A DNA stretch of 64,000 bases from Deltaproteobacteria bacterium (lineage in GTDB: Bacteria; Desulfobacterota; Syntrophobacteria; BM002). The stretch covers positions 1-64,000 of the forward strand of contig JAFDGZ010000002.1 in the NCBI GenBank assembly GCA_019309045.1, written 5' to 3'. A model generated the notes under the pieces. That model saw only the letters and a program-made list of their open reading frames with translations. It had not been told where the DNA came from and did not search any database. The position numbers were made by a program, and so were the translations under genes. Shown one piece after another: positions 41,114 through 58,069 of the stretch. The first letter of the stretch is position 1. Every line of letters starts with the position of its first letter.

Positions 41114-41119
41114 TCGGCT

Positions 41120-41773: not shown

Positions 41774-42364
41774 ATGGTCCGGTTGGCAAATGCCCTGACA
41801 TTCGGCCAGCAAAGCGTTGCTCTCAGCTGCCCGACTCCTCGCCTGAATATTTTCTGCTGGTGGCCCGCCACGGCCTTTACCCCTCGTGGAGATTTGCTGT
41901 CCTTTTCGATGCCTCACCGGCCAGCCAACTGCTGAGCTGACATACCAGCCAGCCCAGGTGCTTTTCCTTCCCTGGCCGATGAGGTGCAGGCCCAATTTTC
42001 TCTCGGATGTACGTCCTCCCCTAAAATTACCCAGGATGAGGGATCAATTCCACCCCTTCGAGGGATTTTAATAAGCTGCTACTTTTGTTTTCATGACTCA
42101 GACAGAAATGTCTGCTCTCAACAGCTACCACTCTGTGGATCGGTTCTCCAAATTGGCGTCTGACTAGTAATCACTTGTCCTCCTCAGCGGCATATTGGCA
42201 GAGGAAGGCGGTGTGAATTGATAGTGTCCGTCTGATTTAATGCTCAACCAAGGCCCCCTGCCTTCGTAGTGGCAATCAGGCCCTGCCAGGAGGGTGGGGA
42301 AAAATTTTTTCTACAGGTCAGGGTTTGTCCTGATCCTGGATTCCAACTAAGAGGGGGAAAACCA
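41774..42364 (+). promoter_or_regulatory. Regulatory region upstream of the microcompartment operon
   Basis: About 590 bases without a gene separate the response regulator from the first operon gene. A 6+6 palindrome CAGACA-GAAA-TGTCTG lies at 42099-42114, and CGTCTGA recurs in direct orientation at 42157-42163 and 42229-42235. These GTCTG-type repeats are candidate regulator sites. I found no sigma-54 promoter and no B12 riboswitch box. A GAGGGGG ribosome site closes the region at about 42350. Confidence 0.4.
42099..42114. promoter_or_regulatory. Inverted repeat, candidate operator
   Basis: A perfect 6-bp inverted repeat with a 4-bp spacer (CAGACAGAAATGTCTG) lies in the space between the regulator genes and the microcompartment operon. 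Dimeric LuxR-type regulators bind sites of this size, but binding here is an inference. Confidence 0.35.
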
Positions 42365-43471
42365 ATGAGCAGAATGTTGATTGCACCCGGTCGTTATGTT
42401 CAAGGAGCAGGCGCTATTGACGAGATTGGCATGCACACAGCCACCCTGGGGGGAAGCAAAGCACTGTTGACAGGAGGCAACACTGCCTTGTCTGCCGTGG
42501 CCGAGTCGATCAGGGCCAGCCTTGCTGATAAGAACATCGGCTGTCATCAGGAGGACTTCCATGGAGAATGCTCAGATCAGGAAATCAACCGACTAGTTGA
42601 GGCGGCCAAGTCTAATGGTGCTGACGTGATCATTTGTGCTGGCGGTGGCAAAGTGATCGACACTGGCAAGGCAGTGGCCCATGAGTTGAAAGTGCCGGTA
42701 ATTGTTGTGCCTACCATAGCTGCAACTGATGCGCCCTGTTCGGCGCTGTCGGTCATTTACACCGAAGAAGGGGTCTTCGACCGCTATCTGGTGTTGCCCA
42801 GAAATCCGGAGTGCGTTCTTGTGGATACGGCAATCGTGGCCAAAGCCCCGGTGCATTATCTGGTATCAGGCATGGGAGACGCGCTGGCCACTTTCTGGGA
42901 AGCCGACACCTGTGCCAAGAGCTGCAAGCCGAATGTGCTCACAGGGGCAACACCGCCGACCCTGTCCGCAATTACCCTGGCACGGCTTTGTTATGACACT
43001 CTGCTCGAACACGGGCTGGCAGCCAAGCTGGCTGTGGAAAAGGATGCAGTGACTCCAGCGGTAGAGGCAGTTGTAGAAGCCAATACCTTGCTCAGCGGGC
43101 TGGGTTTTGAAAGCGGCGGCTTGGCTGGCAGTCATTCTGTACACAACGGTTTTACTGTGCTGGAGGCCTCACACGGAAAACTGCACGGCCAGAAGGTTGC
43201 CTTTGGCGTTCTCACCCAACTGGTCATGGAAGGCCGTCCTGCGAGTGATGTCAATGAAGTGCTCGATTTCTGTCTAGATGTGGGTCTGCCGGTGTGCCTG
43301 GAAGATGTGGGACTGGTTGATCCGAGCAGGGAAGATATCAGGAAAGTGGCAGAAGCTACCACGGCAGAGGGTGAAACCATCCATGCTACCTGGTTTCCGG
43401 TGAATGCCGACATTGTCGAGGCTGCAATCTGGGCGGCAGACGCAATCGGCAGACAAGCAAAAGCTGGCTAA
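42365..43471 (+). CDS. gldA: Glycerol dehydrogenase-like iron-type alcohol dehydrogenase
   Basis: The 368-residue protein is of the GldA subgroup of group III alcohol dehydrogenases. It contains GGGKVIDTGKAVAHELKVP and PTIAATDAPCSALSVIYT, the metal-ligand Asp in GMGDALATFWEAD, and metal-ligand His residues in LAGSHSVHNGF and HGKLHGQKVAFG. Family members interconvert glycerol and dihydroxyacetone and also reduce short aldehydes or diols. In this first position of the operon it may replace PduQ by recycling NADH to NAD+ through alcohol formation. No encapsulation helix is visible at either end. Start is the ATG at 42365 after GAGGGGG. Confidence 0.88.
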   Translation: MSRMLIAPGRYVQGAGAIDEIGMHTATLGGSKALLTGGNTALSAVAESIRASLADKNIGCHQEDFHGECSDQEINRLVEAAKSNGADVIICAGGGKVIDTGKAVAHELKVPVIVVPTIAATDAPCSALSVIYTEEGVFDRYLVLPRNPECVLVDTAIVAKAPVHYLVSGMGDALATFWEADTCAKSCKPNVLTGATPPTLSAITLARLCYDTLLEHGLAAKLAVEKDAVTPAVEAVVEANTLLSGLGFESGGLAGSHSVHNGFTVLEASHGKLHGQKVAFGVLTQLVMEGRPASDVNEVLDFCLDVGLPVCLEDVGLVDPSREDIRKVAEATTAEGETIHATWFPVNADIVEAAIWAADAIGRQAKAG

Positions 43472-43486: not shown

Positions 43487-43981
43487 ATGGCTCTACTACC
43501 CGTGTCCATAAGCATCGGCATATTGTGCGCACTCTGGTTTCAAATCACCATGTGGGTTCCCTGGCTCATTGCCTGGGTCGGCTATGCAGCCTGGGCCAGT
43601 TTCTATTATGCCGGTGGCAACAAGGATGCCCTGGTAAAGTCCATTGCAGCGAATGTGGCTGGCATGGTACAGGGTGCTCTCTTTTATTGGCTGTGGCTCA
43701 AATTTGGCGGCGGCAATGTGATCTTGCTCTCCATCTGGATCGGTGTCTTCTGTTTCGTCATGACAATAGAAGGAAATATTCCACTTCTTTCAGCCATTCC
43801 TGGACAGTTTGTGGGTGCTGCTGTCTTTTTTGGCAATTTGGGCGGTCACAAGGGTGAAATAGCGGTCACTCTCGTGAACACCTTTGTCTGTATGATCATA
43901 GGGAACTTGGCGGGTATCCTGTCGGCGAAACTTCCTGATGTTTTCAAGAAAAAGGAGGAAGCTGAGGAGGCTGCTACCTGA
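43487..43981 (+). CDS. DUF1097 (YcdZ-like) membrane protein
   Basis: The 164-residue product has about five membrane helices (SISIGILCALWFQITMWVP; WLIAWVGYAAWASFYYAGG; AANVAGMVQGALFYWLWL; VILLSIWIGVFCFVM; TFVCMIIGNLAGIL) and a charged tail. It resembles the DUF1097 family. A GGAGG site precedes the ATG 15 bases after gldA. Its place inside a diol-utilisation operon suggests a facilitator or transporter replacing PduF, but the family's activity is unknown to me. Confidence 0.75.
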   Translation: MALLPVSISIGILCALWFQITMWVPWLIAWVGYAAWASFYYAGGNKDALVKSIAANVAGMVQGALFYWLWLKFGGGNVILLSIWIGVFCFVMTIEGNIPLLSAIPGQFVGAAVFFGNLGGHKGEIAVTLVNTFVCMIIGNLAGILSAKLPDVFKKKEEAEEAAT

Positions 43982-43999: not shown

Positions 44000-44098
44000 A
44001 TGAGCAAGGTCCTTGATATCAATGCGCTGGCGGCTGAGGAAGCAGGTGGAGCTCAGCTGGCCAGCAAGCAAATGCAAAGGAGGTACAGGAGATGGTGA
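44000..44098 (+). CDS. Possible 32-residue leader peptide before the first shell gene
   Basis: A short frame ([17 protein letters not shown] start) runs across the gap between the DUF1097 gene and the shell gene, ending seven bases inside the latter. The AGGAGG site of the shell gene lies within it. The peptide is amphipathic at its start and Arg-rich at its end. It may be a coupling leader, a relic, or chance. Confidence 0.25.
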
Positions 44099-44379
44099 AA
44101 GAAGCATTGGGCATGATTGAAACCAGAGGCTTGGTCCCCAACATCGAGGCAGCCGATGCCATGGTCAAGGCAGCCAATGTGGTGCTGGTGGGACAGGTCA
44201 AGATTGGTGCTGGTCTCGTTACGGCCATGGTGCGAGGGGATGTGGGCGCGGTAAAGGCGGCTACAGATGCAGGAGCGGCTGCGGCGCAGAAGGTTGGCGA
44301 GGTCGTATCCGTGCACGTGATCCCGAGACCTCATCAGGACGTGGAGAGAGTTTTGCCAGAAGCCCCTGACAAGAAGTAA
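44092..44379 (+). CDS. pduA: Hexameric microcompartment shell protein (BMC-H, PduA/PduJ-like)
   Basis: A 95-residue single BMC domain: [20 protein letters not shown], pore loop VKIGAGL (KIGSG in PduA), then [18 protein letters not shown] and [11 protein letters not shown]. It should form the main facet hexamers. The pore loop has Ala in place of the usual Ser, a small change that keeps a narrow polar pore. An AAGGAGG site precedes the ATG. It could equally be called PduJ-like; the two cannot be separated here. Confidence 0.92.
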
Positions 44380-44436
44380 CAGGGGCCCATCCTGGATTAT
44401 CACCACGATTTGGCCCTAACCAGGAGGGAATATCCG

Positions 44437-45246
44437 ATGCAAGAAGAATTGATAAATAAAGTCTTGAAGGAAGTGATGAAAAGGGTTGGCTCGGCCTCCT
44501 CTGGGGCGGCTGGGTCTAAGGCACCTAAGAAGAATAATCCCTCTGCAGCAGCAAGTCTGGCGGAACTCACCGAATTTGTCGGCATTGGCCCAGGGGACAC
44601 TCAGGGAATCGTCATTGCCAATCTGGATCCCATAATCCACGAGATCATGGGCTTTGACAAGACCTATCGTTCTCTGGGAATCATTGGCGGCCGGGTGGGG
44701 GCTGGCCCACAACTGATGGCGGCTGACGAGGGGATCAAGGCAACCAATACAGAGATCCTCAGAGTTGAGATGCCTAGAGATACCAAAGGGCAGGCTGGCC
44801 ATGGCAATCTGATCATATTCGGGGCAGAAGACGTCTCTGACGCCCGCCGTGCTGTGGAGGTGACTCTGGAGGTACTGCCAAAGTTTTTCGGTGATGTGTA
44901 CGCCAACGACCAGGGCTATACCGAGAATCAGTATTCTGCCAGGGTAAGCAAGGTTCTGAACTTTGCCTTGAAAGTCCCTGAAGGACGGGCTTTCGGTTTG
45001 ATCCTTGGAGCCCCCGCAGTGGTAGGTATGCTCATGGTTGACACAGCTGTCAAGGCAGCCGATGTGGAAGTTCTCGGCTACGGTTCACCTGCCCATGGGA
45101 CCAGCCTGACCAATGAGGTTTTTATCTGGGTGACCGGTGACTCTGGGGCAGTGCGCCAGGCGGTAATTGCTGGTCGAGAAGTGGGCAACAAACTGTTGGC
45201 CGCCTGGGGTGAGGAACCGAAGTCATTGGGTACACCATACATATAG
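44437..45246 (+). CDS. pduB: Trimeric tandem-BMC shell protein PduB
   Basis: The product has two BMC domains (FVGIGPGDTQGIVIANLDP region and GRAFGLILGAPAVVGMLMVDT region) joined through VYANDQGYTENQYSARVSKVL, as in PduB/EtuB. The N-terminus (MQEELINKVLKEVMKRVG) is an amphipathic helix followed by a Ser/Ala/Lys linker, the form seen in PduB and in encapsulation peptides; it could bind cargo or the inner shell face. CAGGAGGG precedes the ATG at 44437. Length 270 matches PduB. Confidence 0.93.
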   Translation: MQEELINKVLKEVMKRVGSASSGAAGSKAPKKNNPSAAASLAELTEFVGIGPGDTQGIVIANLDPIIHEIMGFDKTYRSLGIIGGRVGAGPQLMAADEGIKATNTEILRVEMPRDTKGQAGHGNLIIFGAEDVSDARRAVEVTLEVLPKFFGDVYANDQGYTENQYSARVSKVLNFALKVPEGRAFGLILGAPAVVGMLMVDTAVKAADVEVLGYGSPAHGTSLTNEVFIWVTGDSGAVRQAVIAGREVGNKLLAAWGEEPKSLGTPYI

Positions 45247-45258
45247 GGAGAGTTCGCA

Positions 45259-46926
45259 ATGGCTAGAAGACAAAAACGCTTCCAAGTGCTTGCCGAACGA
45301 GCCGTCAACAAAGACGGCTTTATCAAGGAATGGATTGAAGTAGGTCTGGTCGCCATGGACAGTCCCAATGATCCAACGCCCGGAATAAAGATAGAAAACG
45401 GCAAGGTGATGGAACTGGACGGCAAGAGTCGTCGAGATTTCGATATGATCGATACCTGGATAGCAGACCACTGTATAGATACGTCCGTGGCTGAGGAGGC
45501 AATGGCCGTTGACTCCCTGAAATTCGCCCAGATGCTGGTGGATATCCACGTGCCCCGTTCTGAGATCGTCCGTCTATCTGTCGGCATGACCCCAGCAAAG
45601 ATCCTCGACGTTCTAAAGAAGATGAATGTGGTGGAGCTTATGATGGCCATGCAAAAACTGCGGCCCAGGCGGACGCCGTCCAACCAGGCTCACGTTACCA
45701 ATTTAAAGGATACGCCGGCCTTGTTGGCCGCGGATGCGGCTGAAGGCGCCTATCGGGGCTTCAGTGAGCTGGAGACCACGGTCGGTGTTGGTCGTTACGC
45801 CCCCATGAACGCCCTTTCTATTCTTGTGGGCTCCCAGACAGGGAGACCTGGCTCGCTCACCCAATGTGCCGTGGAAGAGGCCCTTGAACTCACCATGGGA
45901 ATGCGAGGACTGACAGCCTATGCTGAAACAGTTTCTGTCTATGGAACCGAACAGGTTTTTGTAGACGGCGATGACACCCCCTGGTCCAAGGCCTTCCTGG
46001 CTTCGGCCTATGCCTCGCGGGGCTTGAAAATGAGGTACACCTCAGGCACGGGCTCAGAAGTGCAGATGGGCTATGCCGAGGGCAAGTCCATGCTGTACCT
46101 GGAGATTCGCTGCGTAATGATCACCAAGGCTGCTGGAGTTCAGGGGTTGCAAAACGGCTCCATCAGTGTAATCGGCGTGCCAGGGGCAGTGCCAGGTGGT
46201 ATTCGGGCAGTGCTGGCAGAAAATGTGGCCACTGTTCTCATGGACCTGGAAGTTGCCTCGGGTAATGATCAGACTTTTACCCATTCACCCATTCGCAACA
46301 CGGCGCGTATGCTGATGCAGTTTCTTCCCGGTACAGACCTGATTTTTTCCGGCTACAGCGCGGTGCCCAACTATGACAACATGTTTGCCGGCTCTACCCA
46401 TGACTCGGACGATTATGACGACTATCTCGTGCTGCAACGTGATTTGCAGGTTGATGGCGGCTTGCGACCGGTAAGGGAAGATGAGGTGATAGCCGTGCGC
46501 AACAAGGCAGCCAGGGCGTTGCAGGCTGTATTCCAGGAATTGGGGCTGCCGCCGATTACGGATGAGGAGGTAGAGGAAGCCACCTATGCCCATGGCAGCA
46601 AGGAGATGCCAGATCGGCATGTTCCTGATGACCTGCGCGCCATTGATGAGATGATGAAGCGTGGGACTACGGGACTGGATGTGGTTAAGGCCCTGGCAAA
46701 ACATGGATTCAGGGATGTGGCGGAGGCGGTACTTGGCATGTTGAAGGCAAAGGTATCTGGAGATTACCTCCACACTTCGGCTATTTTCGACGACGATTTT
46801 GAAGTGCTGAGCGCAGTCAACGATCCTAATGATTATCAGGGACCTGGGACAGGCTATCGGCTCGAAGGCGCAAGATGGGAGCTCTTGAAGGATATCCCAC
46901 AGGCCATTAGTCCTGAAGACGTCTAG
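45259..46926 (+). CDS. pduC: B12-dependent diol/glycerol dehydratase large subunit
   Basis: The 555-residue alpha subunit dehydrates 1,2-propanediol or glycerol to the aldehyde by a radical reaction. It keeps His of SNQAHVTN, the Glu of FSELETTVG, the Glu of LTAYAETVSVYGTE, the Gln of GVQGLQNGSISVIG, and Asp-Gln of NDQTFTH, which correspond to the substrate and potassium ligands of the Klebsiella oxytoca enzyme. It aligns end to end with that protein, and no glycyl-radical motif is present. Sequence alone does not tell whether diol or glycerol is preferred. It follows pduB by 12 bases. Confidence 0.96.
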   Translation: MARRQKRFQVLAERAVNKDGFIKEWIEVGLVAMDSPNDPTPGIKIENGKVMELDGKSRRDFDMIDTWIADHCIDTSVAEEAMAVDSLKFAQMLVDIHVPRSEIVRLSVGMTPAKILDVLKKMNVVELMMAMQKLRPRRTPSNQAHVTNLKDTPALLAADAAEGAYRGFSELETTVGVGRYAPMNALSILVGSQTGRPGSLTQCAVEEALELTMGMRGLTAYAETVSVYGTEQVFVDGDDTPWSKAFLASAYASRGLKMRYTSGTGSEVQMGYAEGKSMLYLEIRCVMITKAAGVQGLQNGSISVIGVPGAVPGGIRAVLAENVATVLMDLEVASGNDQTFTHSPIRNTARMLMQFLPGTDLIFSGYSAVPNYDNMFAGSTHDSDDYDDYLVLQRDLQVDGGLRPVREDEVIAVRNKAARALQAVFQELGLPPITDEEVEEATYAHGSKEMPDRHVPDDLRAIDEMMKRGTTGLDVVKALAKHGFRDVAEAVLGMLKAKVSGDYLHTSAIFDDDFEVLSAVNDPNDYQGPGTGYRLEGARWELLKDIPQAISPEDV

Positions 46927-46951
46927 CACTGCTCAGGGGAGGTAGTTGCAA

Positions 46952-47596
46952 ATGGATATTTCTGAAGAGATGGTCAAAGAGATTATTATTGAAGTTTTGC
47001 AGCAGATGCAGGGAGAGAAAGCATCCACTGCCACCGCGGATGTAGAGTTCCCAGCTGTCGAGTTCAGGGAAATCGGCGAGGCCAAGCCTGGAACCGACAG
47101 AAACGAGGTAGTAATTGGCATTCCACCAGCCTTTGGCAGGGCAATGACAAAGACTATCATCGGTATACCTCATAAAGAGGTACTGCGAGAAGTAATGGCT
47201 GGCATTGAAGAGGAAGGCCTGAGAGCGCGCCTGGTCAGAGTGAACAAGACGGCGGACGTGGGATTCATTGCCCATGAAGCTGCCAAGCTTAGCGGCTCTG
47301 GCATAGGCATAGGCATCCTTTCCCGAGGTACCTCAGTCATCCACCAGAAGGACCTGGCTCCCCTGCAAAATCTGGAACTGTTTTCCCAATCACCCCTCGT
47401 TGAACTGGAAACCTTTCGTGCCATTGGCCGTAACGCCGCCAAGTATGCCAAGGGGGAGACCCCGGCGCCGGTGCCAGTACGGAATGATCCCATGGCGCGG
47501 CCCCGTTACCAGGGTCTGGCAGCACTGCTGCACAACAAGGAAGTCCAATATGTGAAGCCAGATATGGCGAGCACGGAAGTAAGTGTCGACCTCTGA
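46952..47596 (+). CDS. pduD: Diol dehydratase medium subunit
   Basis: The beta subunit helps bind adenosylcobalamin. [41 protein letters not shown] and [19 protein letters not shown] are typical. The first 19 residues ([19 protein letters not shown]) form the amphipathic helix that in Salmonella PduD targets the whole dehydratase into the shell. GGGGAGG lies before the ATG at 46952. Confidence 0.95.
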
Positions 47597-47677
47597 GTGG
47601 AGCACCGTCTCCAATAAATTGGACACGTGAGTAGGCCAAGATGAAGACGAATGGTACGAGGGTCAGGAGGTAGGTAT

Positions 47678-48208
47678 ATGGCTGATAAGGGAAACAATAT
47701 TTCGCCTGATATGATAGCTGAGGCAGTAAAGCGTGTCATGGCAGCACTGGGCGAACCAACAAAGAAAACGGCCCAAGCTAGTGGGCCGACAACAAGACTT
47801 GATGCCAGGAAGGACTATCCCCTGGCAAGCAAACGGCCTGATCTGGTGCGCTCAGCCAGCGGCCTTGGCCCAGAGGAAATAACAGTTGACAAAGTGGAGG
47901 CCGGGCAGATCACCTTTGATGACGTGAAGATTCGCGCCGAAACCTTGGAATACCAGGCGCAGATTGCTGAAAGCGCTGGACGGCCCCGAGTCGCCGCCAA
48001 TCTACGCCGAGCAGGAGAAATGACTAGGATTCCAGACGAGCGCGTCCTGGAGATCTACAATGCTCTGCGGCCCTATCGGTCAACGAAAGAGGAACTGCTC
48101 GATATCGCCAGGGAACTGGAAGCGAAGTACCAGGCGCGAGTTTGCGCGGCGCTGGTGTTGGAGGCGGCAGAAGTATACGAAAAGCGCGGCAGGTTGAAGC
48201 AGTCTTAG
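47678..48208 (+). CDS. pduE: Diol dehydratase small subunit
   Basis: The gamma subunit shows DYPLASKRPDLVRSASGLG, DDVKIRAETLEYQAQIAE and RVLEIYNALRPYRSTKEEL. Its N-terminus (NISPDMIAEAVKRVMAALG) is another amphipathic helix with a linker behind it. A GGAGG (47666-47670) precedes the ATG at 47678, giving 176 residues, the expected length. It completes the PduCDE set. Confidence 0.95.
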   Translation: MADKGNNISPDMIAEAVKRVMAALGEPTKKTAQASGPTTRLDARKDYPLASKRPDLVRSASGLGPEEITVDKVEAGQITFDDVKIRAETLEYQAQIAESAGRPRVAANLRRAGEMTRIPDERVLEIYNALRPYRSTKEELLDIARELEAKYQARVCAALVLEAAEVYEKRGRLKQS

Positions 48209-48223: not shown

Positions 48224-50050
48224 ATGGTGTATATAGCCGGGGTGGATGTTGGCAACAATTCCACTGAGGTGGCCATAGGTGAGCTCAGAGATGGAGGGCA
48301 GGTATCTTTTCTCTCCAGTTCTCTGGTGCCCACGGTTGGGATCAAGGGAACTGTGCATAATGCCATGGGCATCATAGACGCCCTTGATATGGCTCTGCAG
48401 CCGCTTGCCATTGAGCGGCAGAGTCTCAGCAGTATTCTCCTGAACGAGGCAACGCCGGTAATTGGCGATGTGGCCATGGAGACCATCACCGAGACGGTGA
48501 TAACGGAGTCGGCCATGATCGGCCACAATCCGGCAACCCCTGGAGGTCTGGGCCTCGGACTCGGCACTACTATAAGACTGGAAGAGCTGCCTGGGGCTGC
48601 GAAACATGAACCGTGGATTGTTATAATTCCCGGTACAGTGGACTTCCAGGAGGCAGCGTCGCGACTCAACGAGGCAGCGGCAGCCGGCCTCAACCTGGCC
48701 GGGGCCATAGTCCAGAAAGACGACGCTGTGCTCATTAACAATAGGTTGCAGCGTGCTATCCCCATCGTGGATGAAGTCAGACACATTGAGCGGGTGCCAC
48801 TAGGAATGACGGCAGCCGTGGAGGTGGCCGGGCCAGGCAGGACCATTGAAAAGCTGGCCAATCCTTATGATATCGCCACGCTGTTCAATTTGAGTCCAGA
48901 GGAAACCAGGCGGGTGGTGCCCATTGCCAGGGCTCTCATGGGAACCCGCAGTGCTGTGGTCATCAAGACCCCGCGCGGCGACATAAGAGAGCGCCGAATC
49001 CCTGCCGGCAAGATCGTTTTGCTAGGTTCTAAAAGGAAGGCAGAGGTCCAGGTGGAGGCAGGCGCCGAGGCCATAATGAGACAGGTGGCTCACGTTTCAC
49101 CGCTGGTGGAAATCCAGGCCGAGCCAGGGACCAATGTGGGGGGCATGTTCGAGCATGTGCGTCAGGTAATGGCGGACCTCACAGATCAACCGGTCAGTGC
49201 CATCCGAGTGCAGGATATTCTGGCTGTGGACACCATGAAGCCGCAACAAGTTCTCGGAAGTCTGGCTGGCGAATATGCCATGGGCAATGCTGTGGGGTTG
49301 GCGGCCATGGTGGAAACTCAGAAACTGCCAATGCAGCGACTCGCCCGGAAGCTGGAACAGGAGGTCATGGTTCCCACAGTTGTTGCCGGAGTCGAGGCTG
49401 AGATGGCCATTCGCGGGGCCATGACTACACCCGGCACTTCGGCGCCCCTGGCCATATTGGATCTCGGCGGCGGCTCCACCGACGCCTCCTTTATTGACGA
49501 GGCCGGCAATATTCGCAGTGTTCATCTCGCCGGTGCCGGGGACATGGTCTCCATGCTCATCGACACGGAACTGGCTCTGGAAGACCGGGAACTTGCCGAG
49601 AACATAAAATGGTATCCCCTGGCCAAGGTGGAGACACTTTTTCACATGCGCCATGAGGACGGCTCAGTGCAATTTTTCCATGAGCCTCTTGATCCTCGCT
49701 CCTTCGGACGGGTTGTGGTGCTTACTGAACAGGGAGCGGTGCCGCTCGAGGTCAGGGAATCGCTGGCAAAGATTGCTGCGGTTCGCCAGGAGGCCAAAAA
49801 AAAAGTTTTTGTGCGTAATGCATTGCGAGCTCTGGAAAGGGTGGCCCCGGCCGGCAATATTCGCCTGATCAGTTTTGTAGTGCTGGTGGGTGGCTCGGCT
49901 CTGGATTTCGAAATTCCTCGGATGATCTCAGACGCCCTGGTGGAATATGGCGTAGTTACTGGGCGGGCCAATGTTCGCGGGCTCGAGGGGCCTCGCAACG
50001 CAGTGGCCACTGGCCTGATTCTGGCGCATGCCGAGAAGCAGAGAGGATAA
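48224..50050 (+). CDS. pduG: Diol dehydratase reactivase large subunit (DdrA)
   Basis: With PduH it removes damaged cobalamin from stalled dehydratase in an ATP-dependent exchange. The actin/Hsp70-like ATPase motifs are visible: AGVDVGNNSTEVAIGEL, ILDLGGGSTDASF and VLVGGSALDFEIPRM. Length 608 is that of the family. It starts 15 bases after pduE. No encapsulation helix is present in this subunit. Confidence 0.95.
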   Translation: MVYIAGVDVGNNSTEVAIGELRDGGQVSFLSSSLVPTVGIKGTVHNAMGIIDALDMALQPLAIERQSLSSILLNEATPVIGDVAMETITETVITESAMIGHNPATPGGLGLGLGTTIRLEELPGAAKHEPWIVIIPGTVDFQEAASRLNEAAAAGLNLAGAIVQKDDAVLINNRLQRAIPIVDEVRHIERVPLGMTAAVEVAGPGRTIEKLANPYDIATLFNLSPEETRRVVPIARALMGTRSAVVIKTPRGDIRERRIPAGKIVLLGSKRKAEVQVEAGAEAIMRQVAHVSPLVEIQAEPGTNVGGMFEHVRQVMADLTDQPVSAIRVQDILAVDTMKPQQVLGSLAGEYAMGNAVGLAAMVETQKLPMQRLARKLEQEVMVPTVVAGVEAEMAIRGAMTTPGTSAPLAILDLGGGSTDASFIDEAGNIRSVHLAGAGDMVSMLIDTELALEDRELAENIKWYPLAKVETLFHMRHEDGSVQFFHEPLDPRSFGRVVVLTEQGAVPLEVRESLAKIAAVRQEAKKKVFVRNALRALERVAPAGNIRLISFVVLVGGSALDFEIPRMISDALVEYGVVTGRANVRGLEGPRNAVATGLILAHAEKQRG

Positions 50051-50062
50051 CTTGGTGACGGT

Positions 50063-50548
50063 ATGAAATTTTCTGAGCCAGGCAAGAAACCCGCCGTGTT
50101 CATCCGGGTGGGGGGCAGCGCGGCCAGAGAGTTGCTAGCGCCGATCTTCTGGGGGCTCGAAGAAGAGGGTATTCCGGCTGAACTTCATGAGACAACAGCC
50201 GAGCCAGCAGTAGTGCTGGCCAAGGAGGCAGCTGACAGTTCACCTTTGAACGTGGGTATCGGCCTCAATGCAAATGAAGGTGTTGCTGTTCTGCACCATC
50301 GAGATCTGCCAGCCGACAAGCCTTTGTTCGAGTTTGCTGCTGGCGAGCTGCAGCCGCCACGTCTGCGGCAGTTAGGCCTCAATGCCGCCCGCCTGGTCAA
50401 AGGAGATCCACTGGTCACTGGTAGCCCCTCCAGTTCAGGGCTTGCAGCAGCGGAGCCGCAGCAGTGGACTCCGGGGGAACTGAACCAGCAACAACTGCTA
50501 GAGTTGATTCAGGGGATAGTGAGTGAACTTTTGCAGAAAAACAGGTGA
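50063..50548 (+). CDS. pduH: Diol dehydratase reactivase small subunit (DdrB) with C-terminal helix
   Basis: Residues 1-115 are the normal PduH/DdrB fold (FIRVGGSAARELLAPIFWG; GIGLNANEGVAVLHHRDLP). The family usually stops near 120 residues; this one has 161. The extra part is a Ser/Ala/Pro linker (GSPSSSGLAAAEPQQ) and a closing amphipathic helix (QQQLLELIQGIVSELLQK). The helix has the hydrophobic spacing of microcompartment encapsulation peptides, though at the C-terminus. This would carry the reactivase into the shell. pduG precedes it by 12 bases. Confidence 0.9.
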   Translation: MKFSEPGKKPAVFIRVGGSAARELLAPIFWGLEEEGIPAELHETTAEPAVVLAKEAADSSPLNVGIGLNANEGVAVLHHRDLPADKPLFEFAAGELQPPRLRQLGLNAARLVKGDPLVTGSPSSSGLAAAEPQQWTPGELNQQQLLELIQGIVSELLQKNR

Positions 50549-50553
50549 AACTC

Positions 50554-50997
50554 ATGGAAAAGCAGAGTCTAGGCCTCATTGAAACCTGGGGAATGGTAGC
50601 TGCTATAGAAGCGGCGGATGCGGGCAGCAAGGCGGCAAATGTTGCTTTTCTTGGTTTTGAGCAGGTGCCGACCGGTCTGGTCGTGCTGAGATTTGTAGGC
50701 GATGTGGCGGCAGTCAAGGCAGCGGTGGCAGCAGCAGAAGCCGCAGCGGTCAAGGTGGGCAGAGTGGTGGCCGTACACGTAATTCCCAGGCCGGACGAAC
50801 AGATACCTAGGTTCGAACCGCAGAAGCCGCCTCCTGTTGAGAAGCAAAAAACCGAGGCACCTCCCGAGGGGCCTCCACCTTCTCCCGCAAAGGAGAAGGC
50901 AGAGAAAACGCTGAAGCGAACGGCTCGCAAGAGGGGAAAAGGCAAAGCAGAAAGCGCCAAGGCAGTGAAGAAGAAAGGCAGGAAATCCCGCAAGTGA
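50554..50997 (+). CDS. Hexameric shell protein (BMC-H) with a long lysine-rich tail
   Basis: Residues 1-88 form one BMC domain (SLGLIETWGMVAAIEAADAG; GDVAAVKAAVAAAEAA; VVAVHVIPRPDEQ). The pore loop reads EQVPTGL, unlike the KIGSG type, so selectivity may differ. Residues about 95-148 are a Pro-rich spacer then a strongly basic tail (KRTARKRGKGKAES, KKKGRKSRK) that resembles histone H1 tails and has no Cys. PduK also has a tail, but that one is Cys-containing. The tail may bind acidic partners, nucleic acid or the lumen; none is shown. An ATG at 50554 is chosen over a GTG at 50545. Confidence 0.85.
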   Translation: MEKQSLGLIETWGMVAAIEAADAGSKAANVAFLGFEQVPTGLVVLRFVGDVAAVKAAVAAAEAAAVKVGRVVAVHVIPRPDEQIPRFEPQKPPPVEKQKTEAPPEGPPPSPAKEKAEKTLKRTARKRGKGKAESAKAVKKKGRKSRK

Positions 50998-51117: not shown

Positions 51118-51735
51118 ATGGCTGACCTTCGTTCTTATGTATACCTGGACCGGTTGCAGCCGCAATTTGCAGCGTATATCGGGGCCAATGCCAGAGGATA
51201 TATCCCGGTTGCAGGGATGGCTGCTCTACTGGTAGAGATCTCACCTGGAGTCCTGATCAATCAGGTGACTGATGCTGCTGTGAAAGCAGCCAATGTGAGG
51301 CCGGGCCTAATGGTTGTAGAACGCCATTTTGGCGTGCTGGAGTTCCATTCAAAAGCGCAGGCGGAGGTCAAACACGCTGGCAGTGCTGTACTCAAGAGCC
51401 TGGGCATGACCATCGAAGATCGGCTCAAACCAAAGATACTCAGCTCGCAGATCATCAACAAAGTCAACGCCTATCATGCACAAATGGTCAATGTCTCGCG
51501 CCTTTGTTCTATGCTGCTGCCAGGGCAGGATCTCTATATACTCGAAGTACAGCCGGCTGCTTACATCACTCACGCAGCCAACGAGGCTGAAAAGAACTCG
51601 AGGATCACCCTGGTGGACTGTAGAAGCTACGGTGCCGTAGGCCGCCTGTATCTCGGCGGCAAGCGCTCAGATGTGGAACGGGCTGCCGGTGCTGCCGAAG
51701 CCGCCGTCAAGAACATAAGCGGCAAGCAATCATGA
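51118..51735 (+). CDS. Tandem-BMC-domain shell protein (BMC-T)
   Basis: The 205-residue product begins ADLRSYVYLDRLQPQFAAYIG and has two BMC-like halves (PVAGMAALLVEISPGVLINQV; SMLLPGQDLYILEVQPAAYI). Such proteins form pseudohexameric trimers. It resembles the tandem shell proteins of other BMC loci more than PduB, with which it shares little sequence; its exact subtype is open. It lacks the Cys that binds an iron-sulfur cluster in PduT, as far as I can see. A strong AAGGAGG site precedes the ATG. Confidence 0.8.
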   Translation: MADLRSYVYLDRLQPQFAAYIGANARGYIPVAGMAALLVEISPGVLINQVTDAAVKAANVRPGLMVVERHFGVLEFHSKAQAEVKHAGSAVLKSLGMTIEDRLKPKILSSQIINKVNAYHAQMVNVSRLCSMLLPGQDLYILEVQPAAYITHAANEAEKNSRITLVDCRSYGAVGRLYLGGKRSDVERAAGAAEAAVKNISGKQS

Positions 51736-51745
51736 GCGGCTGGTT

Positions 51746-52588
51746 ATGAAAATCAAAGAAGCAGCAAACAAGCGGATTGCAGCATTTGCAGAGGCATTGA
51801 TATTGAACGGCAACAGCAGGCCGACTGGTGAACTCTACGCGGGCGTAGATCTTGGCACTGCCTACATTGTTACCGCTGTAGTAGACAGCCAGGGCACGCC
51901 TGTTGCCGGAGTGCTCACCCGCAGTGAATCCAGCGTTCGAGACGGTCTGGTACTGGATTATGTGGGCGCCATTGCCATTCTGAGGCGGCAATTGCAAAGG
52001 CTGCGGCAGGCCGGCCTGGCTGTTGGCCTGGCAAAAGCAGCCTATCCACCTGGAACTACGGGCCGCAATGCCTCGGCTTTCGGCAATGTGCTGACAGCCG
52101 TCGGTCTGGAGGTTCAGGGGCTCATAGACGAGCCCACTGCGGCCGCGCTGGTGCTGGAGATCACGGATGGGGCAGTGGTGGACATCGGCGGTGGTACAAC
52201 CGGCATCTCTGTCCTGGAGAATGGTGCTGTGATCTACACAGCAGATGAACCAACTGGCGGAGTGCACCTGGATCTTGTCCTTGCGGGCCATTTCAGGATG
52301 GAGCTTGCTGAGGCCGAGCGCTTGAAGAGAGATTCTTCCCGGCAGACTGAGCTTTTTCCTTTACTGAGGCCGGTGTTTCAGAAGATGGCGACTATTGTCC
52401 GGCAGCACTTGCAGGGACATCAGGTTGAGACCATATATCTGGTAGGAGGAACCAGTTCTTTTCCAGGCATAGAGGGTGTTATGGAGGAAGAAACGGGCTT
52501 GCCGGTGGTGCGCCCCACAAGTCCTTTACTCGTCACACCTCTGGGCATTGCCCTGAGCTGCCTGCAGAGCGCTGGCAGGGCAGAATAG
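51746..52588 (+). CDS. eutJ: EutJ-family actin-like ATPase
   Basis: Hsp70/actin-fold motifs are present: YAGVDLGTAYIVTAVVD, AVVDIGGGTTGISVL and YLVGGTSSFPG. EutJ proteins are thought to be chaperones for microcompartment enzymes. It follows the tandem-BMC gene by ten bases. Having both PduGH and EutJ in one locus adds a second possible chaperone. The client is unknown. Confidence 0.9.
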   Translation: MKIKEAANKRIAAFAEALILNGNSRPTGELYAGVDLGTAYIVTAVVDSQGTPVAGVLTRSESSVRDGLVLDYVGAIAILRRQLQRLRQAGLAVGLAKAAYPPGTTGRNASAFGNVLTAVGLEVQGLIDEPTAAALVLEITDGAVVDIGGGTTGISVLENGAVIYTADEPTGGVHLDLVLAGHFRMELAEAERLKRDSSRQTELFPLLRPVFQKMATIVRQHLQGHQVETIYLVGGTSSFPGIEGVMEEETGLPVVRPTSPLLVTPLGIALSCLQSAGRAE

Positions 52589-52600
52589 GCAAGTATTTTC

Positions 52601-53398
52601 ATGAGCACCGAACAGTTGCAGCAGATCGTAACCCGGGTCATCAGCAAGTTGGTCTCACGGCTCGAAGCAGGTGCCCAACAGGCCAGGGTGATTGCCGTGT
52701 TCAGCGCTGCTACGGTCAATTTCGAAGAGGCCATCCAGCAGGTGCTGTTGCTGCCTCTAGCCGGTTATGGCGTGGAAGTGGCCCTGTCAGCCGCAGCAGA
52801 ACAACTTTACGGCGGGGTGCTGCGCAAGCAGCTGGCAGGACTTCCACTGTTCGGCTGGATTGAGCCCGGAGAGTGGCTCGTTGCTCTGAGAAGGGCTCGT
52901 GCTGTTGTAGTTCCCCTGCTCAGTGTGAACACTCTCTCCAAGGTGTGCCTGCTGGTAGCTGATTCTCTGGCAAGCAATCTCATCCTGCATGGTTTGTTTA
53001 TGGGAAAAGAGGTCATTGCCGCCCGCAACGGCGCTGACCCCTTGAGCCAGGGTCGCCAGCTGCTCGGTTTCGCCGGGGGGACTGCAGCACTTGAGCAGGC
53101 CTTGCAGGAACGGTTGCAGACAATTGCAGACTACGGCTGCTATTTGACTGATATGCAGGAGCTCACAGCAACGGTTGCTGCAGTGCTTGGCAGCGTTGGC
53201 AAGTCGAGTTCTGCAAGAAGAGCCCCGGGAACATTTGCTGCGGGGCACAATTATGCCAGGAGGATCATATGTGCCAGCGACATTCTGCGGGCGCATCGCC
53301 AGGGTGAGGGTCTGTTGCTGGCAGGGGCATCACTGCTTACTCCCCTGGCTCGCGATCTGGCAAAAAGATACGGCATAGCCCTGGAAGACGACCTATAA
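52601..53398 (+). CDS. Dfp-like flavoprotein with N-terminal encapsulation-type helix
   Basis: The opening (MSTEQLQQIVTRVISKLV) is an amphipathic helix of the encapsulation type. Residues about 28-200 look like the flavoprotein (FMN-binding, phosphopantothenoylcysteine decarboxylase) fold: RVIAVFSAATVNFEEAI and the VVPLLSVNTLSKVCLLVAD block that corresponds to the family's PxSxNTxxK loop. It lacks the catalytic Cys and His pattern of CoaC as far as I can see. Similar flavoproteins occur in several BMC loci. A lumenal redox role is inferred. Confidence 0.7.
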   Translation: MSTEQLQQIVTRVISKLVSRLEAGAQQARVIAVFSAATVNFEEAIQQVLLLPLAGYGVEVALSAAAEQLYGGVLRKQLAGLPLFGWIEPGEWLVALRRARAVVVPLLSVNTLSKVCLLVADSLASNLILHGLFMGKEVIAARNGADPLSQGRQLLGFAGGTAALEQALQERLQTIADYGCYLTDMQELTATVAAVLGSVGKSSSARRAPGTFAAGHNYARRIICASDILRAHRQGEGLLLAGASLLTPLARDLAKRYGIALEDDL

Positions 53399-53427: not shown

Positions 53428-53703
53428 ATGTTGATTGCCCGAGTAATAGGAACGGTGGTCGCCACCCGTAAACACGAGCGGTTGGTGGGCAGCAAGATAC
53501 AGATAGTTCAACCCCTGGAACCCAGGACCCAGCGTGAAAAAGATGCTCCCTTTGTGGCGGTAGACGCCGTAGGCGCTGGTGTTGGTGAGCAGGTGGTAGT
53601 GGTCCTCGGCAGTGGTGCTCGGCAGGCACTGGACAACGAGCTGTGCCCGGTGGATGCTACCATCATTGGCATAGTCGATGAAATAGACGTGCAAAAAGGA
53701 TAA
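53428..53703 (+). CDS. pduN: Pentameric vertex protein (BMC-P, EutN/CcmL/PduN)
   Basis: The 91-residue protein starts MLIARVIGTVVATRKHERLVG and includes VAVDAVGAGVGEQVVVVLGSGAR, the signature of vertex-capping pentamers. A GAAAGGGAAG site precedes the ATG. It closes the icosahedral shell, and its presence shows the locus has all three shell classes. Confidence 0.95.
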   Translation: MLIARVIGTVVATRKHERLVGSKIQIVQPLEPRTQREKDAPFVAVDAVGAGVGEQVVVVLGSGARQALDNELCPVDATIIGIVDEIDVQKG

Positions 53704-53730: not shown

Positions 53731-54303
53731 ATGAAAATTTATAGCGGACGCGGAGATGGAGGACAGAGTCGTCTCCTGAGCGGCGAAAGGGTAGAAAAGG
53801 ATGATCCCCGGCTCAAGACATTCGGGGCCCTGGATGAACTCCAGAGCCACCTGGGGATGGCCCGGGCCATGACCAGGCAGGAGTTTCTGCGCCGCATTCT
53901 TTATGCTGTCCAGCAGGATACATTTGTGGCGAGCTCTGAGATTGCCTCCACTGGGGCTGCTCTTTCGAAGTTAGATAGGCGTCTGCAGGAGGTTGATATT
54001 GCCAAAGTGGAGAACTGGATCGATGAATTAACAGCGAGTTATGGTCTGCCCCGCGGTTTTGTGGTGCCGGGCAGGTCGCAGGACAGTGCCGCCGTCCATG
54101 TGGCCAGGGCTGTGTGCCGACGCTGTGAACGGTTGATCCTCGTGCTGAACCGGCAGGAGAGCGGTCTCTATGGCAGATTGCTGGTCTATTACAACCGCCT
54201 CAGCGACCTGCTTTTTGTCCTGGCATGGGTCCTGGAACTGAGAGCCATTGTCGAAGAGGCAGTGCGAAGCGTACTCGAGGTGAAGTCGGCGGAGGGCCAC
54301 TGA
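53731..54303 (+). CDS. pduO: PduO-type cob(I)alamin adenosyltransferase
   Basis: This enzyme makes adenosylcobalamin for the dehydratase. The N-terminal ATP loop YSGRGDGGQSRLL and the cobalamin/ATP block FVVPGRSQDSAAVHVARAVCRRCER with YYNRLSDLLFVLAW are conserved. It is only the N-terminal half of Salmonella PduO; the C-terminal HbpS-like half is encoded by the next gene, three bases on. Confidence 0.92.
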   Translation: MKIYSGRGDGGQSRLLSGERVEKDDPRLKTFGALDELQSHLGMARAMTRQEFLRRILYAVQQDTFVASSEIASTGAALSKLDRRLQEVDIAKVENWIDELTASYGLPRGFVVPGRSQDSAAVHVARAVCRRCERLILVLNRQESGLYGRLLVYYNRLSDLLFVLAWVLELRAIVEEAVRSVLEVKSAEGH

Positions 54304-54305
54304 TT

Positions 54306-54890
54306 ATGAAGATCTCCTATCCACTGGCAGCTACTCTGGCAGCAATTGCTGAAGCGGCAGCTCAGGCTGTGGGCGTGCCCATGGTAATTGCTCTGGTGGA
54401 CAGCGAAGGCTCTCTGCTCTTTTTTGGCCGCATGGACGGCTCCCTACCTGTAAGTATTGAACTGGCTGTGGGCAAGGCATATACCGCTGCTGCCCTGCGT
54501 CTGGCCACCCAGGAGGTGGGCAAACTCGCCCAGCCCGGCAAAGCGCTCTATGGTATCCAGCACAGCCACAGCAAGAGAATTGTCCTGTTCGGGGGCGGTC
54601 TGCCTCTGCGATTAAAGGGCAAGGTGGTTGGAGGGGTTGGCATCAGCGGCGGTACGGTTGAGGAGGATATCCAGGTTGCCGAGGCTGTGGTCAGAGCGCT
54701 GGAACAAATGGAGTCATTGTCTGAGCAATTAAAACCGGTGCTGGCAACGGCGGCCTACGGAATTGACACCATTGCGGAACTTTCGCAGAGAATCGAGGCG
54801 GAACTGCGCCGGTTGGATCTTACTCAGGCGGCTGGGAATGTTTCCCTATTGAAAGGAGCAGTACTGCTGGCCTTCGAGGGGCGCACCTGA
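54306..54890 (+). CDS. GlcG/HbpS-like protein, split-off PduO C-terminal domain
   Basis: Residues 1-140 match the GlcG/HbpS (DUF336) fold: VGVPMVIALVDSEGSLLFFGRMDG, GKAYTAAALRLATQEVG and FGGGLPLRLKGKVVGGVG. In Salmonella PduO this domain is the C-terminal half and binds heme. Here it is a free protein with an added helical tail of about 50 residues. The ATG at 54306 is used, since the earlier frame lies inside pduO. Its function is uncertain. Confidence 0.85.
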   Translation: MKISYPLAATLAAIAEAAAQAVGVPMVIALVDSEGSLLFFGRMDGSLPVSIELAVGKAYTAAALRLATQEVGKLAQPGKALYGIQHSHSKRIVLFGGGLPLRLKGKVVGGVGISGGTVEEDIQVAEAVVRALEQMESLSEQLKPVLATAAYGIDTIAELSQRIEAELRRLDLTQAAGNVSLLKGAVLLAFEGRT

Positions 54891-54962: not shown

Positions 54963-56363
54963 ATGTCGGTCAACAAGGAAATAATTGCCGACTTGGTGAA
55001 ACAGGTTATAGCCGAGCTCACAAAGGACGGAGAATCTCAGAGGCAGTCCGACCACTCTGGTCTTGCCGATACAGTTGAAGCCGCGGTAGTGGGCGCGGTG
55101 GCAGCCCAGAAAAGTCTCATTGCCCTGTCTCTCGAGAAGCGCAATGAGATTATTGCTGCCATGCGGCAGGCAGCCCTGGAAAATAATGAACAGCTTGCCG
55201 CCATGGCAGTAGAGGAAACTGGAATTGGCCGCTATGAAGACAAAGTCAGAGAGAACATTCTATGTGCCACCAAGACTCCGGGCACTGAGGATATTCGCCC
55301 CCAGGCGCTGAGCGGCGATGATGGTTTGATGCTTCTGGAGTTTGCCCCGGTGGGTGTCATTGGCGCCCTGACTCCCATCACCAATCCTACTGGAACAATC
55401 ATCAACAACAGTATCGGCATGATAGCCGCCGGCAATGCTGTGGTCTTCAATCCTCATCCCACAGCGACCAAAACCAGTACTAGGATGATTCAAATACTCC
55501 ATCAGGCCGTAGTGACTGCTGGGGGCCCTGCTGGTCTGATTTCCTCTGTGCGCAAACCAACCTTGGACACGGCAAAGCAAATTATTGAGCACCCCAAAGT
55601 CAACATGCTGGTGGCCACAGGCGGCAGGCCGGTAGTGAAAGTAGTGCTCAGCTCTGGCAAGAAGGCCATTGGTGCCGGCGCCGGCAATCCACCGGCACTA
55701 GTGGACGAGACAGCACATATTCGCAGAGCTGCCCGCTGTATTGTTGATGGGGCCAGCATCAACAACAACGTCTTTTGCACCTCTGAAAAAGAAGTGATAG
55801 TCGTGGACGAAGTGGCCAATTCACTGATCAAGTTCATGCAGGAAACCGGCAAGGTCTATCTGCTCGATGCGGAGGAGGCCAGCAGAGTGACGGATCTTGT
55901 GGTCACTCCTGAGGGCAAGGTCAATGTTGCCTACATAGGCAAAAACGTGCAGGTCATATTGCGCCAGATTGGCATTGAATTGGGCGAGGAATACCGCCTG
56001 GCCATTTTCGAGGCCGCCAAGGATCATCCCCTGGTATGGCTGGAACAGATGATGCCCATTATGCCCATAGTGCGCGTCCAGGATGTCCAGGAAGGAATCA
56101 GTTTCGCCGTAGAGGTGGAGCAGGGGAACAGGCATACTGCCATTATGCATTCAACAAACGTGGACAATATGACTGCCTTTGCCCGGGCTGTGCAGACGAC
56201 CATATTCGTAAAAAATGGACCTTCCTTTGCTGGAATAGGCCTCGGAGGAGAGGGACATACTGCCTTTACTATTGCCGGGCCCACAGGAGAGGGATTGACC
56301 TCTGCACGAACGTTCACTCGCCAGCGGCGCTGTACGCTGGTAGAGGGTTTCAGGATTATTTGA
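54963..56363 (+). CDS. pduP: CoA-acylating aldehyde dehydrogenase PduP
   Basis: PduP oxidises the aldehyde in the lumen to acyl-CoA with NAD+. The aldehyde dehydrogenase fold shows TPITNPTGTIINNSIGMIAAGN, GAGNPPALVDE and a nucleophile at Cys272 in NNNVFCTSEKEV. The N-terminus (SVNKEIIADLVKQVIAELT) is the classical encapsulation helix. Length 466 is normal. A GAGGGGGAG site precedes the ATG. Confidence 0.96.
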   Translation: MSVNKEIIADLVKQVIAELTKDGESQRQSDHSGLADTVEAAVVGAVAAQKSLIALSLEKRNEIIAAMRQAALENNEQLAAMAVEETGIGRYEDKVRENILCATKTPGTEDIRPQALSGDDGLMLLEFAPVGVIGALTPITNPTGTIINNSIGMIAAGNAVVFNPHPTATKTSTRMIQILHQAVVTAGGPAGLISSVRKPTLDTAKQIIEHPKVNMLVATGGRPVVKVVLSSGKKAIGAGAGNPPALVDETAHIRRAARCIVDGASINNNVFCTSEKEVIVVDEVANSLIKFMQETGKVYLLDAEEASRVTDLVVTPEGKVNVAYIGKNVQVILRQIGIELGEEYRLAIFEAAKDHPLVWLEQMMPIMPIVRVQDVQEGISFAVEVEQGNRHTAIMHSTNVDNMTAFARAVQTTIFVKNGPSFAGIGLGGEGHTAFTIAGPTGEGLTSARTFTRQRRCTLVEGFRII

Positions 56364-56384: not shown

Positions 56385-56801
56385 ATGAACATTAATCTTG
56401 AGCTGGCCCTGGAATTGATAGCTAGGGCCAGGGAAAAGGCCGGCGAGATTGGCGTGCCCATGGTAATAGCTGTGGTTGATGGCGGCGGCAATGTGGTGGC
56501 GCTGCAGCGCATGGACGGGGCTCTGCTGGTGAGCATAGACATTGCCATCAACAAGGCTTACACGGCTGTGGCAGTGAAGATCGCCACCGGGGAGCTGGCG
56601 GGGTTGGCTCAGCCGACGCAGCCGCTCTTTGGCATTCACAATGCTGACGGCGGCCGCATCATTATTTTCGGGGGCGGTCTTCCGTTGAAGCGCGGCCAGG
56701 AGATCATCGGCGGCATTGGTGTCAGCGGTGGTAGCGTGGAGCAGGACGTGCTATGCGCCGAAGCTGCTATCGAATATCTAGCGAGCTTGCCAGAGAGTTG
56801 A
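56385..56801 (+). CDS. GlcG/HbpS-like protein (second copy)
   Basis: The 138-residue product is a lone DUF336 domain (GVPMVIAVVDGGGNVVALQRMDG; IFGGGLPLKRGQEIIGGIGVSGG), closely similar to the first half of the 54306 gene. The two flank pduP. Family members bind heme or small oxidised metabolites. The pair suggests duplication, and perhaps a hetero-oligomer; neither is shown. Confidence 0.88.
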   Translation: MNINLELALELIARAREKAGEIGVPMVIAVVDGGGNVVALQRMDGALLVSIDIAINKAYTAVAVKIATGELAGLAQPTQPLFGIHNADGGRIIIFGGGLPLKRGQEIIGGIGVSGGSVEQDVLCAEAAIEYLASLPES

Positions 56802-56804
56802 GTT

Positions 56805-57101
56805 ATGAGAACAGAACTGATTCGCTCACCTACTGCAGCCTTCCTGCAGATGCTGCTGAACAACATAAGGCCGCAGGAACGCAAAAAAATCGAGGGGACG
56901 CGTTGGGGTGCGGTTGGCCTAGTGCAGGCCAGACTCATAGAGCTATACTGGGCGGCAGATGTGGCTGAGAAGGCGAGCAACGTGGTGCCGGTGCTGGTCT
57001 TGGGCAACTGCCCACAGCATATTCAGATGTTGGCAATTTTTGGACAACAGGCGGCAGTGCGGACCGCCCTGGATAAGATTCAGGAAAGTCGGCGCGAATA
57101 G
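56805..57101 (+). CDS. GrpU-like shell protein with GNCPQ pore motif
   Basis: The 98-residue protein keeps a divergent BMC core (WGAVGLVQARLIELYWAADVAEKASNV to AVRTALDKIQE). The N-terminal ELIRSPTAAFLQML resembles the permuted first strand of PduU/EutS. The pore segment reads LGNCPQH at residues 66-72. GrpU shell proteins of glycyl-radical propanediol compartments carry a GxCPQ motif and were shown to bind an iron-sulfur cluster in the hexamer pore. I infer the same here. The start is four bases after the previous stop. Confidence 0.75.
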   Translation: MRTELIRSPTAAFLQMLLNNIRPQERKKIEGTRWGAVGLVQARLIELYWAADVAEKASNVVPVLVLGNCPQHIQMLAIFGQQAAVRTALDKIQESRRE

Positions 57102-57142
57102 GATATAGCGGGCCGATAGCAGCGATAGAATTGGCGGTGGAC

Positions 57143-58069
57143 ATGAAGGTTTCAATCATAGGTGGCGGTGGGCGAGTGGGAGCCTGTGCAGCTTATGCGT
57201 TGCAGTGTGCTGGCATCGTATCTGAGATCATCTTGAATGACATTATGGAGGAGCTGGTTGAGGGAGAGGCCCTAGACCTGCTGCATGGCAGCGCTCTCCT
57301 GCACGACCAGCGCATAGGGGTGGCAGAGATGCCTGCTGCGGCTCAGGCCGAGATCATTATCATCACCGCCGGCCTGCGCCGAAAACCAGAGGAGTCGAGG
57401 CTGGATCTCATCAACAGGAACGTATCGTTGTTTCTCTCCATTTTGCAGGAGCTGAAAGAGGCACCTCTGCAAAAGGAGACCATACTGCTGGTAATCTCCA
57501 ATCCGGTGGACATTCTCACGCATCTGGCTGTTGAGCGCAGCGGTCTGCCTTCACAGCAAATCATCGGCCTTGGCACCTTGCTAGATACCTCACGATTCTC
57601 TTCCCTGATTGCCGCTGCCATCAAGGCGGCACCCACCCAGGTGAAAGGCTTGATTCTAGGTGAGCACGGCGATTCCATGGTGCCGATCTGGTCCTCGGCA
57701 ACCTGGAACGGCATTTCCCTGGACAATTACCCTGAGCTCAGCGCAGCCAGGAAAAATGAAATTTTCCAGCGCACCCGCCAGAGTGGGGCCGAAATGATCC
57801 GCTTGAAAGGTGGAGCAGGCTGGGCTGTGGGCACTGCCATAGCCACTCTGGTCCACTCCATTGCTCTGGACCAGAGGAAGGCCCTTCCTGTGAGTTCTCT
57901 GCAGACAGGCACATACGGCCTGCAGGGTGTCTGCCTCAGTGTGCCCACTGTGGTGGGGCGATGTGGTGTGGTGAGCCACCTCGAAGTGGAACTCTGGCCT
58001 CGCGAGATTCAGGCATTGAAACGCTCCGCCAAGACCTTGCAGAAGACTCTTGCAGACATTGAGAGTTAG
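57143..58069 (+). CDS. Lactate/malate dehydrogenase family oxidoreductase
   Basis: The NAD-binding N-terminus (KVSIIGGGGRVGACAAYAL, LNDIMEELVEGEALDLLHG) and the catalytic His in GEHGDSMVP mark the LDH/MDH family. The specificity-loop position held by Gln in lactate dehydrogenases and Arg in malate dehydrogenases is Arg here (AGLRRKPEESR), which argues for malate or another dicarboxylate. It is the last operon gene and has no encapsulation helix. The ATG at 57143 follows GGCGGTGG. It may connect the pathway's NAD pool to central carbon; this is inference. Confidence 0.85.
   Translation: MKVSIIGGGGRVGACAAYALQCAGIVSEIILNDIMEELVEGEALDLLHGSALLHDQRIGVAEMPAAAQAEIIIITAGLRRKPEESRLDLINRNVSLFLSILQELKEAPLQKETILLVISNPVDILTHLAVERSGLPSQQIIGLGTLLDTSRFSSLIAAAIKAAPTQVKGLILGEHGDSMVPIWSSATWNGISLDNYPELSAARKNEIFQRTRQSGAEMIRLKGGAGWAVGTAIATLVHSIALDQRKALPVSSLQTGTYGLQGVCLSVPTVVGRCGVVSHLEVELWPREIQALKRSAKTLQKTLADIES

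Follow-up and report, generated by a model that had tools for sequence, protein, structure and literature searches.

The closest described relatives of the protein analysed here are the GrpU shell proteins of glycyl-radical compartments, two of which have been solved (PDB 4OLP from Pectobacterium and 4OLO from Clostridiales 1_7_47FAA). To our knowledge, no function is known even for characterised GrpUs. The grpU gene is almost exclusive to GRM loci (Ferlez 2019), and this near-exclusivity had suggested that the protein feeds the radical activating enzyme. An absorbance band of GrpU at ~420 nm disappears upon mutation of its Cys; the GrpU crystal structures leave the pores unresolved, and clusters of this kind are sensitive to oxygen (PMC6325248). 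Acetobacterium woodii has an orphan GrpU outside a GRM locus (Awo_c10540), where it adjoins a cobyrinate a,c-diamide synthase gene and has no other compartment genes nearby (PMC7593272). Among B12-dependent compartments, classic PDU shells rely on PduS to re-reduce the cofactor; PduS, a binding partner of PduT, can reduce both cob(III)alamin and cob(II)alamin (PMC2982820). PDU1D compartments are described in main-text passages that name a PocR-domain histidine kinase with its response regulator as their hallmark (Axen 2014, PMC4207490) and BMC-Tdp as a component (Sutter 2021, PMC8217296); in the available passages of both main texts, GrpU is not mentioned for PDU1D.

The window, a 64,000-nucleotide stretch of a Deltaproteobacteria bacterium genome (G000), encodes a genuine GrpU-family shell protein within a PDU1D-type operon for a B12-dependent diol dehydratase. 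The grpU reading frame spans exactly 56805-57101 on the + strand, begins 3 bases past the stop codon of the preceding HbpS-like gene, and yields a 98-aa permuted BMC-H protein whose translation includes LGNCPQHIQ. Its match to the Pfam BMC profile scores 21.3 bits (E 2.7e-4), under the 24.5-bit cut-off and indicative of a divergent BMC core. Residues 36-94 align to profile positions 1-59, an offset that points to a circular permutation in which elements from the C-terminal end now come first. Searched against the PDB with phmmer, the protein returned both solved GrpUs as the best matches (E 6.8e-16 and 4.4e-15 over residues 1-96, with 38-40% identity) and no other significant match. The AlphaFold2 monomer model, built from a 35-sequence alignment, has a pLDDT of 89.8 and the element order E-H-H-E-H-E-E-H. 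The top seven Foldseek hits to this model are all 4olp or 4olo chains, with 4olp the best (TM 0.78/0.87). PduU and EutS fall far below (E ~3e-3 vs 8e-8 for the GrpU chains), which rules out either identity, and an NCBIfam search of the protein gave no EutS match.

The motif G67-N-C69-P-Q-H (residues 67-72; codons at 57003-57020, +) aligns with the pore-lining loop of PduA and lies in register with the VCPG loop that carries the FeS Cys of PduT. GxCPQ is kept, with an invariant Cys, in 87 of 87 GrpU relatives, a count biased by the fact that part of the set came from a collection scan with CPQ-containing patterns; the relatives found by profile search agree with this invariance. The residue that follows is His or Asn in all but one of the 87, the exception being GHCPQL. 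In the expected hexamer, with which the alignment to the PduA and PduT loops agrees, six Cys69 residues at the pore may hold an oxygen-sensitive FeS cluster, as homologs seem to do. The first-pass annotation had described a GrpU-like protein with a BMC core and a GNCPQ pore motif, and had named structure prediction and a profile search against GrpU and PduU as checks. The core is indeed there, though divergent, with the motif Cys in the pore loop; the structure search places the GrpU chains well ahead of PduU and EutS, and the predicted monomer adopts a permuted BMC fold and not some other fold.

Upstream of the operon, a PocR-domain histidine kinase (PocR domain E 5e-46) and a LuxR-type response regulator are encoded at 39398-41773 (+). 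The operon itself opens with a glycerol dehydrogenase-like (GldA-like) Fe-ADH in the PduQ role (42362-43471, +). Between this alcohol dehydrogenase and PduA lies a DUF1097 protein (43487-43981) that is perhaps a membrane transporter or channel. The remaining genes all occupy the + strand, starting with the PduA/EutM-like major hexamer (44092-44379), the PduB trimer shell protein (44410-45246), and PduC, PduD and PduE of the B12-dependent diol dehydratase (45259-48208). The large and small reactivase subunits, PduG (48224-50050) and PduH (50063-50548), are assigned from gene order and sequence and are conserved in sister operons. A BMC-H protein with a long basic C-terminal tail (50545-50997) follows; the tail is rich in Lys and Arg, and every sister PDU1D operon has a relative of this protein at the corresponding position. 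Next come a CcmP-like stacked permuted trimer (BMC-Tdp; 51118-51735; 264 bits against the CcmP model), a EutJ-like ATPase (51746-52588), an accessory protein of FMN-flavoprotein fold (DmrB/UbiX-like) with a EutQ/PduM-like C-terminus (52601-53398), the EutN/CcmL-type BMC-P vertex protein (53428-53703), a PduO-type cobalamin adenosyltransferase (53731-54303), HbpS-like protein 1 (54306-54890, its start set at an internal ATG), and a PduP-type CoA-acylating aldehyde dehydrogenase (54963-56363). HbpS-like protein 2 (HbpS2; 56385-56801), of the DUF336/PduO C-terminal-like kind and retained in sister operons, directly precedes grpU. An L-lactate/malate dehydrogenase (LDH/MDH) family protein (57131-58069) directly follows it and carries an Arg (LRRKPEESR) at the LDH specificity-Gln position, without the MDH-type Met. 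PduCDE with its reactivase, the PocR-domain kinase with its response regulator, and BMC-Tdp identify the locus as PDU1D, and the gene content otherwise matches that described for such compartments in the main-text passages of Axen 2014 and Sutter 2021 (PduABCDEGH and PduP). No cobalamin riboswitch was matched in an Rfam search of the window.

The genome that contains the window is 96.9% complete, and a search of all of it for the glycyl-radical enzyme (PFL/GRE, PF02901) gave no match; nor did the same search of the two related genomes G407 and G400. PduS was likewise not found in the window's genome, where the sole relative is an RnfC inside a complete rnfCDGEAB-type cluster (contig C11, L119 5484-11722). 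That cluster is a possible source of low-potential electrons. PduT was also not found in this genome, which holds no BMC-T other than PduB and CcmP, and PduL was not found there either.

The window GrpU therefore resembles the solved GrpUs in whole-length homology, permuted BMC fold and GxCPQ[H/N] motif but differs from them in its B12 diol-dehydratase locus, in the lack of any GRE match across its genome, and in its separate clade. It differs from the A. woodii orphan in lying inside a complete shell operon. What is new is thus the B12 context, the protein itself being of a known kind. Among the best 80 GrpU loci of the named genome collection, a single one is a B12 locus (L011, from a Deltaproteobacteria MAG), whose GrpU is 83% identical and which is evidently the same locus as that of G400. 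All the others carry a GRE, its reading frame split in L050 and L056, save L085, which is cut by a contig end. With L011 counted, B12 PDU1D operons with GrpU occur in three further genomes: G407 and G400, from the window's family, and G720, from another family of the same phylum outside the window's class. The B12 context of GrpU thereby extends to four genomes in two families.

These operons and their sisters share one backbone and differ in their tails after PduP. The tail reads HbpS2-GrpU-LDH in the window's genome and G407, HbpS2-GrpU in G400, and HbpS2-GrpU-PduS-PduT in G720, where GrpU, PduS and PduT stand in a row (L150, 15215-17792) within the 20 kb read of a B12 PDU1D operon. That shell would combine two FeS pore proteins, GrpU and PduT. 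Sister operons without GrpU end in HbpS2-LDH (G642, G719), in HbpS2 alone (G422), or in PduS-PduT-Pta-Ack (G036, G796); the G036 PduS contains Nuo51, SLBB, Fer4_17 and RnfC_N domains, and the G036 PduT two BMC domains. Since five sister operons do without it, GrpU is dispensable to the pathway and is best described as a redox tile that B12 compartments may have or lack. Comparison of the window with G036 alone had suggested that GrpU simply replaces PduS-PduT, a reading that we dropped because G720 carries all three and GrpU is therefore compatible with them. A functional GrpU-LDH unit was dropped as well, given LDH without GrpU in G642 and G719 and GrpU without LDH in G720.

The gene is maintained. 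Its orthologs encode GrpUs with 86% (G407) and 83% (G400) identity to that of the window. Between the window's grpU and these two, synonymous sites are saturated while dN is 0.10-0.11, and between G407 and G400 dN/dS is about 0.10; the low dN under saturated dS, together with this ratio, indicates purifying selection. A tree of 36 GrpUs resolves into four groups that match genomic context. The B12-PDU proteins form their own clade on a long branch (support 99/96), beside those of PduB-containing GRM of Enterobacterales and Neisseriaceae (99/97), those of GRM1-like Bacillota (91/75), and those of a third locus type, one that lacks a GRE (99/97). Because the sequences are short and the branches long, the order in which the four groups join is uncertain.

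A selected GrpU in a B12 compartment, in three genomes without a detectable GRE (G000, G407 and G400), indicates that its role here is not GRE activation. These genomes separate GrpU from GRE and so offer a clean test system for the role of GrpU. We propose, with a probability of about 0.6, that GrpU is an electron port or relay of the PDU1D shell that serves B12 upkeep or the exit of surplus electrons and operates without a GRE. As a regular tile of the shell, a GrpU hexamer with six Cys69 at its pore would act as a one-electron port for low-potential electrons, supplied by ferredoxin or flavodoxin on the outside or by the FMN protein of the operon. The electrons would reach the corrin upkeep machinery, namely the adenosyltransferase, the reactivase and the HbpS proteins; alternatively, surplus electrons would leave through the same pore. 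We infer the bound cluster, the hexamer, the direction of electron flow and the corrin as beneficiary. A relay for the corrin is the most likely version, with electron export its main rival; the sequence itself is compatible with either direction of flow and with a service to NADH balance as much as to the corrin. The relay is favoured because a closed shell needs a redox path for B12 re-reduction, because PduS sets a precedent, and because HbpS2 is the neighbour. HbpS2, whose gene immediately precedes grpU, is a member of the PduO C-terminal family; the Salmonella representative of that family is a heme-binding protein on which good growth on propanediol depends (PMC4923194). In G720, moreover, GrpU adjoins PduS and PduT, two FeS proteins that take part in B12 upkeep. 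Like the window GrpU, the PduS-PduT pair presents an FeS-type Cys in a central pore loop, and in G036 and G796 it sits at the same operon end as HbpS2-GrpU does in the window. GrpU would provide six Cys per pore, whereas PduT provides three; the window's genome has neither PduS nor PduT, whereas G720 has both beside GrpU. More tentatively, FeS-pore GrpUs might serve catabolic compartments at large as electron ports, with no tie to glycyl-radical activation; GrpU would then be the only FeS pore of this B12 lineage, and B12 regeneration within the sealed shell would be powered through it instead of through PduS/PduT.

In the opposite direction, GrpU might vent reducing equivalents of PduP-derived NADH to cytosolic acceptors and have no corrin role, the LDH/MDH being part of a redox-balancing module. 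The LDH/MDH gene directly downstream of grpU in both the window's genome and G407, the lack of a PduS to feed the corrin, and the complete rnf cluster are all consistent with such export, as is the midpoint potential of PduT, a comparable FeS pore whose Em of +99 mV suits it to accepting electrons (PMC6325248). The separate occurrence of LDH and GrpU in the sister operons argues against a unit of the two, however, and the GldA-like alcohol dehydrogenase already allows internal recycling of NAD, so that we regard export as unlikely. It is also rather improbable that the cluster or Cys ring is structural, a pore plug or gate possibly opened by oxygen damage that transfers no electrons. The crystallographically unresolved pores and oxygen-sensitive clusters of this class (PMC6325248) would suit a plug, and GrpU has no dedicated electron partner that accompanies it at every locus; yet G-x-C-P is invariant in four clades, and redox proteins (GRE activase or PduS/PduT) also belong to their contexts, a pattern that a redox use fits better. 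That GrpU is a functionless hitch-hiker left over from a glycyl-radical compartment operon has only the slimmest chance. The PDU1D tail does resemble GRM loci, with PduP then GrpU and a EutJ-flavoprotein-BMC-P order, and many sister operons lack GrpU, but a leftover would not be expected to show a dN/dS of about 0.1 (or dN of about 0.1 under saturated dS), a constant position behind HbpS2 in four genomes from two families, and a separate clade on a long branch.

The flavoprotein at 52601-53398 bears on a further alternative, in which it and GrpU jointly replaced PduS/PduT, as the first-pass annotation had suggested. Its sequence-family matches are weak. A predicted structure (pLDDT 79) finds the FMN proteins DmrB, UbiX and PPC decarboxylase by Foldseek (E 1e-6, TM to target 0.68-0.71), and the protein has a conserved signature, P-x-L-S-x-N-[ST]-x-x-K, which we take to resemble the FMN-site motif of the UbiX/DmrB/PPC-decarboxylase fold. 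Joint replacement would account for the absence of PduS and PduT from the window's genome and for the FMN-protein fold of the partner. Relatives of the flavoprotein nevertheless co-occur with PduS in six loci (G036, G796, G720, G142, G047 and G431) and stand in operons with neither GrpU nor PduS in G422, G642 and G719, and the presence of GrpU with PduS/PduT in G720 refutes an evolutionary substitution; the joint version accordingly seems a poor prospect. The flavoprotein is therefore a standing accessory that did not arise to fill the place of PduS, and its identity as a PduS substitute is ruled out by the six co-occurrences. Reduced flavin, free or protein-bound, can reduce PduO-bound cob(II)alamin (summarised in PMC6325248), so it is plausible that the flavoprotein does the work of PduS in this PduS-less lineage. 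The first-pass interpretation was thus half right: its B12-dependent compartment is borne out by the diol dehydratase, reactivase and adenosyltransferase, no GRE was found genome-wide, in line with the absence that it had noted, the search for the PduS that it reported missing gave only the RnfC of the rnf cluster, and its flavoprotein label agrees with the predicted fold, but the stand-in for PduS that it proposed did not survive.

The pdu operons of G400 and G407 (L099, L117, L097, L118) are split, with about 1.9 Mb and 3.6 Mb between PduC and grpU; in these single-contig MAGs the splits are probably assembly misjoins. GrpU also occurs in a third context, a locus with neither GRE nor diol dehydratase (L101/L102 on G431 C46, L094 on G142 C256, and L095 on G047 C228); no GRE at all was found in G431. 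The gene order there is PduA-GrpU-BMC-P-PduS-PduT-EutJ-flavoprotein-two CcmP-like-AldDH, flanked by glutamine-synthetase-like, class II amidotransferase, glutamate-synthase-like (PF01645) and DAO-type FAD oxidase genes. This context looks like a compartmented amine pathway of the N-methylglutamate or gamma-glutamylamide type.
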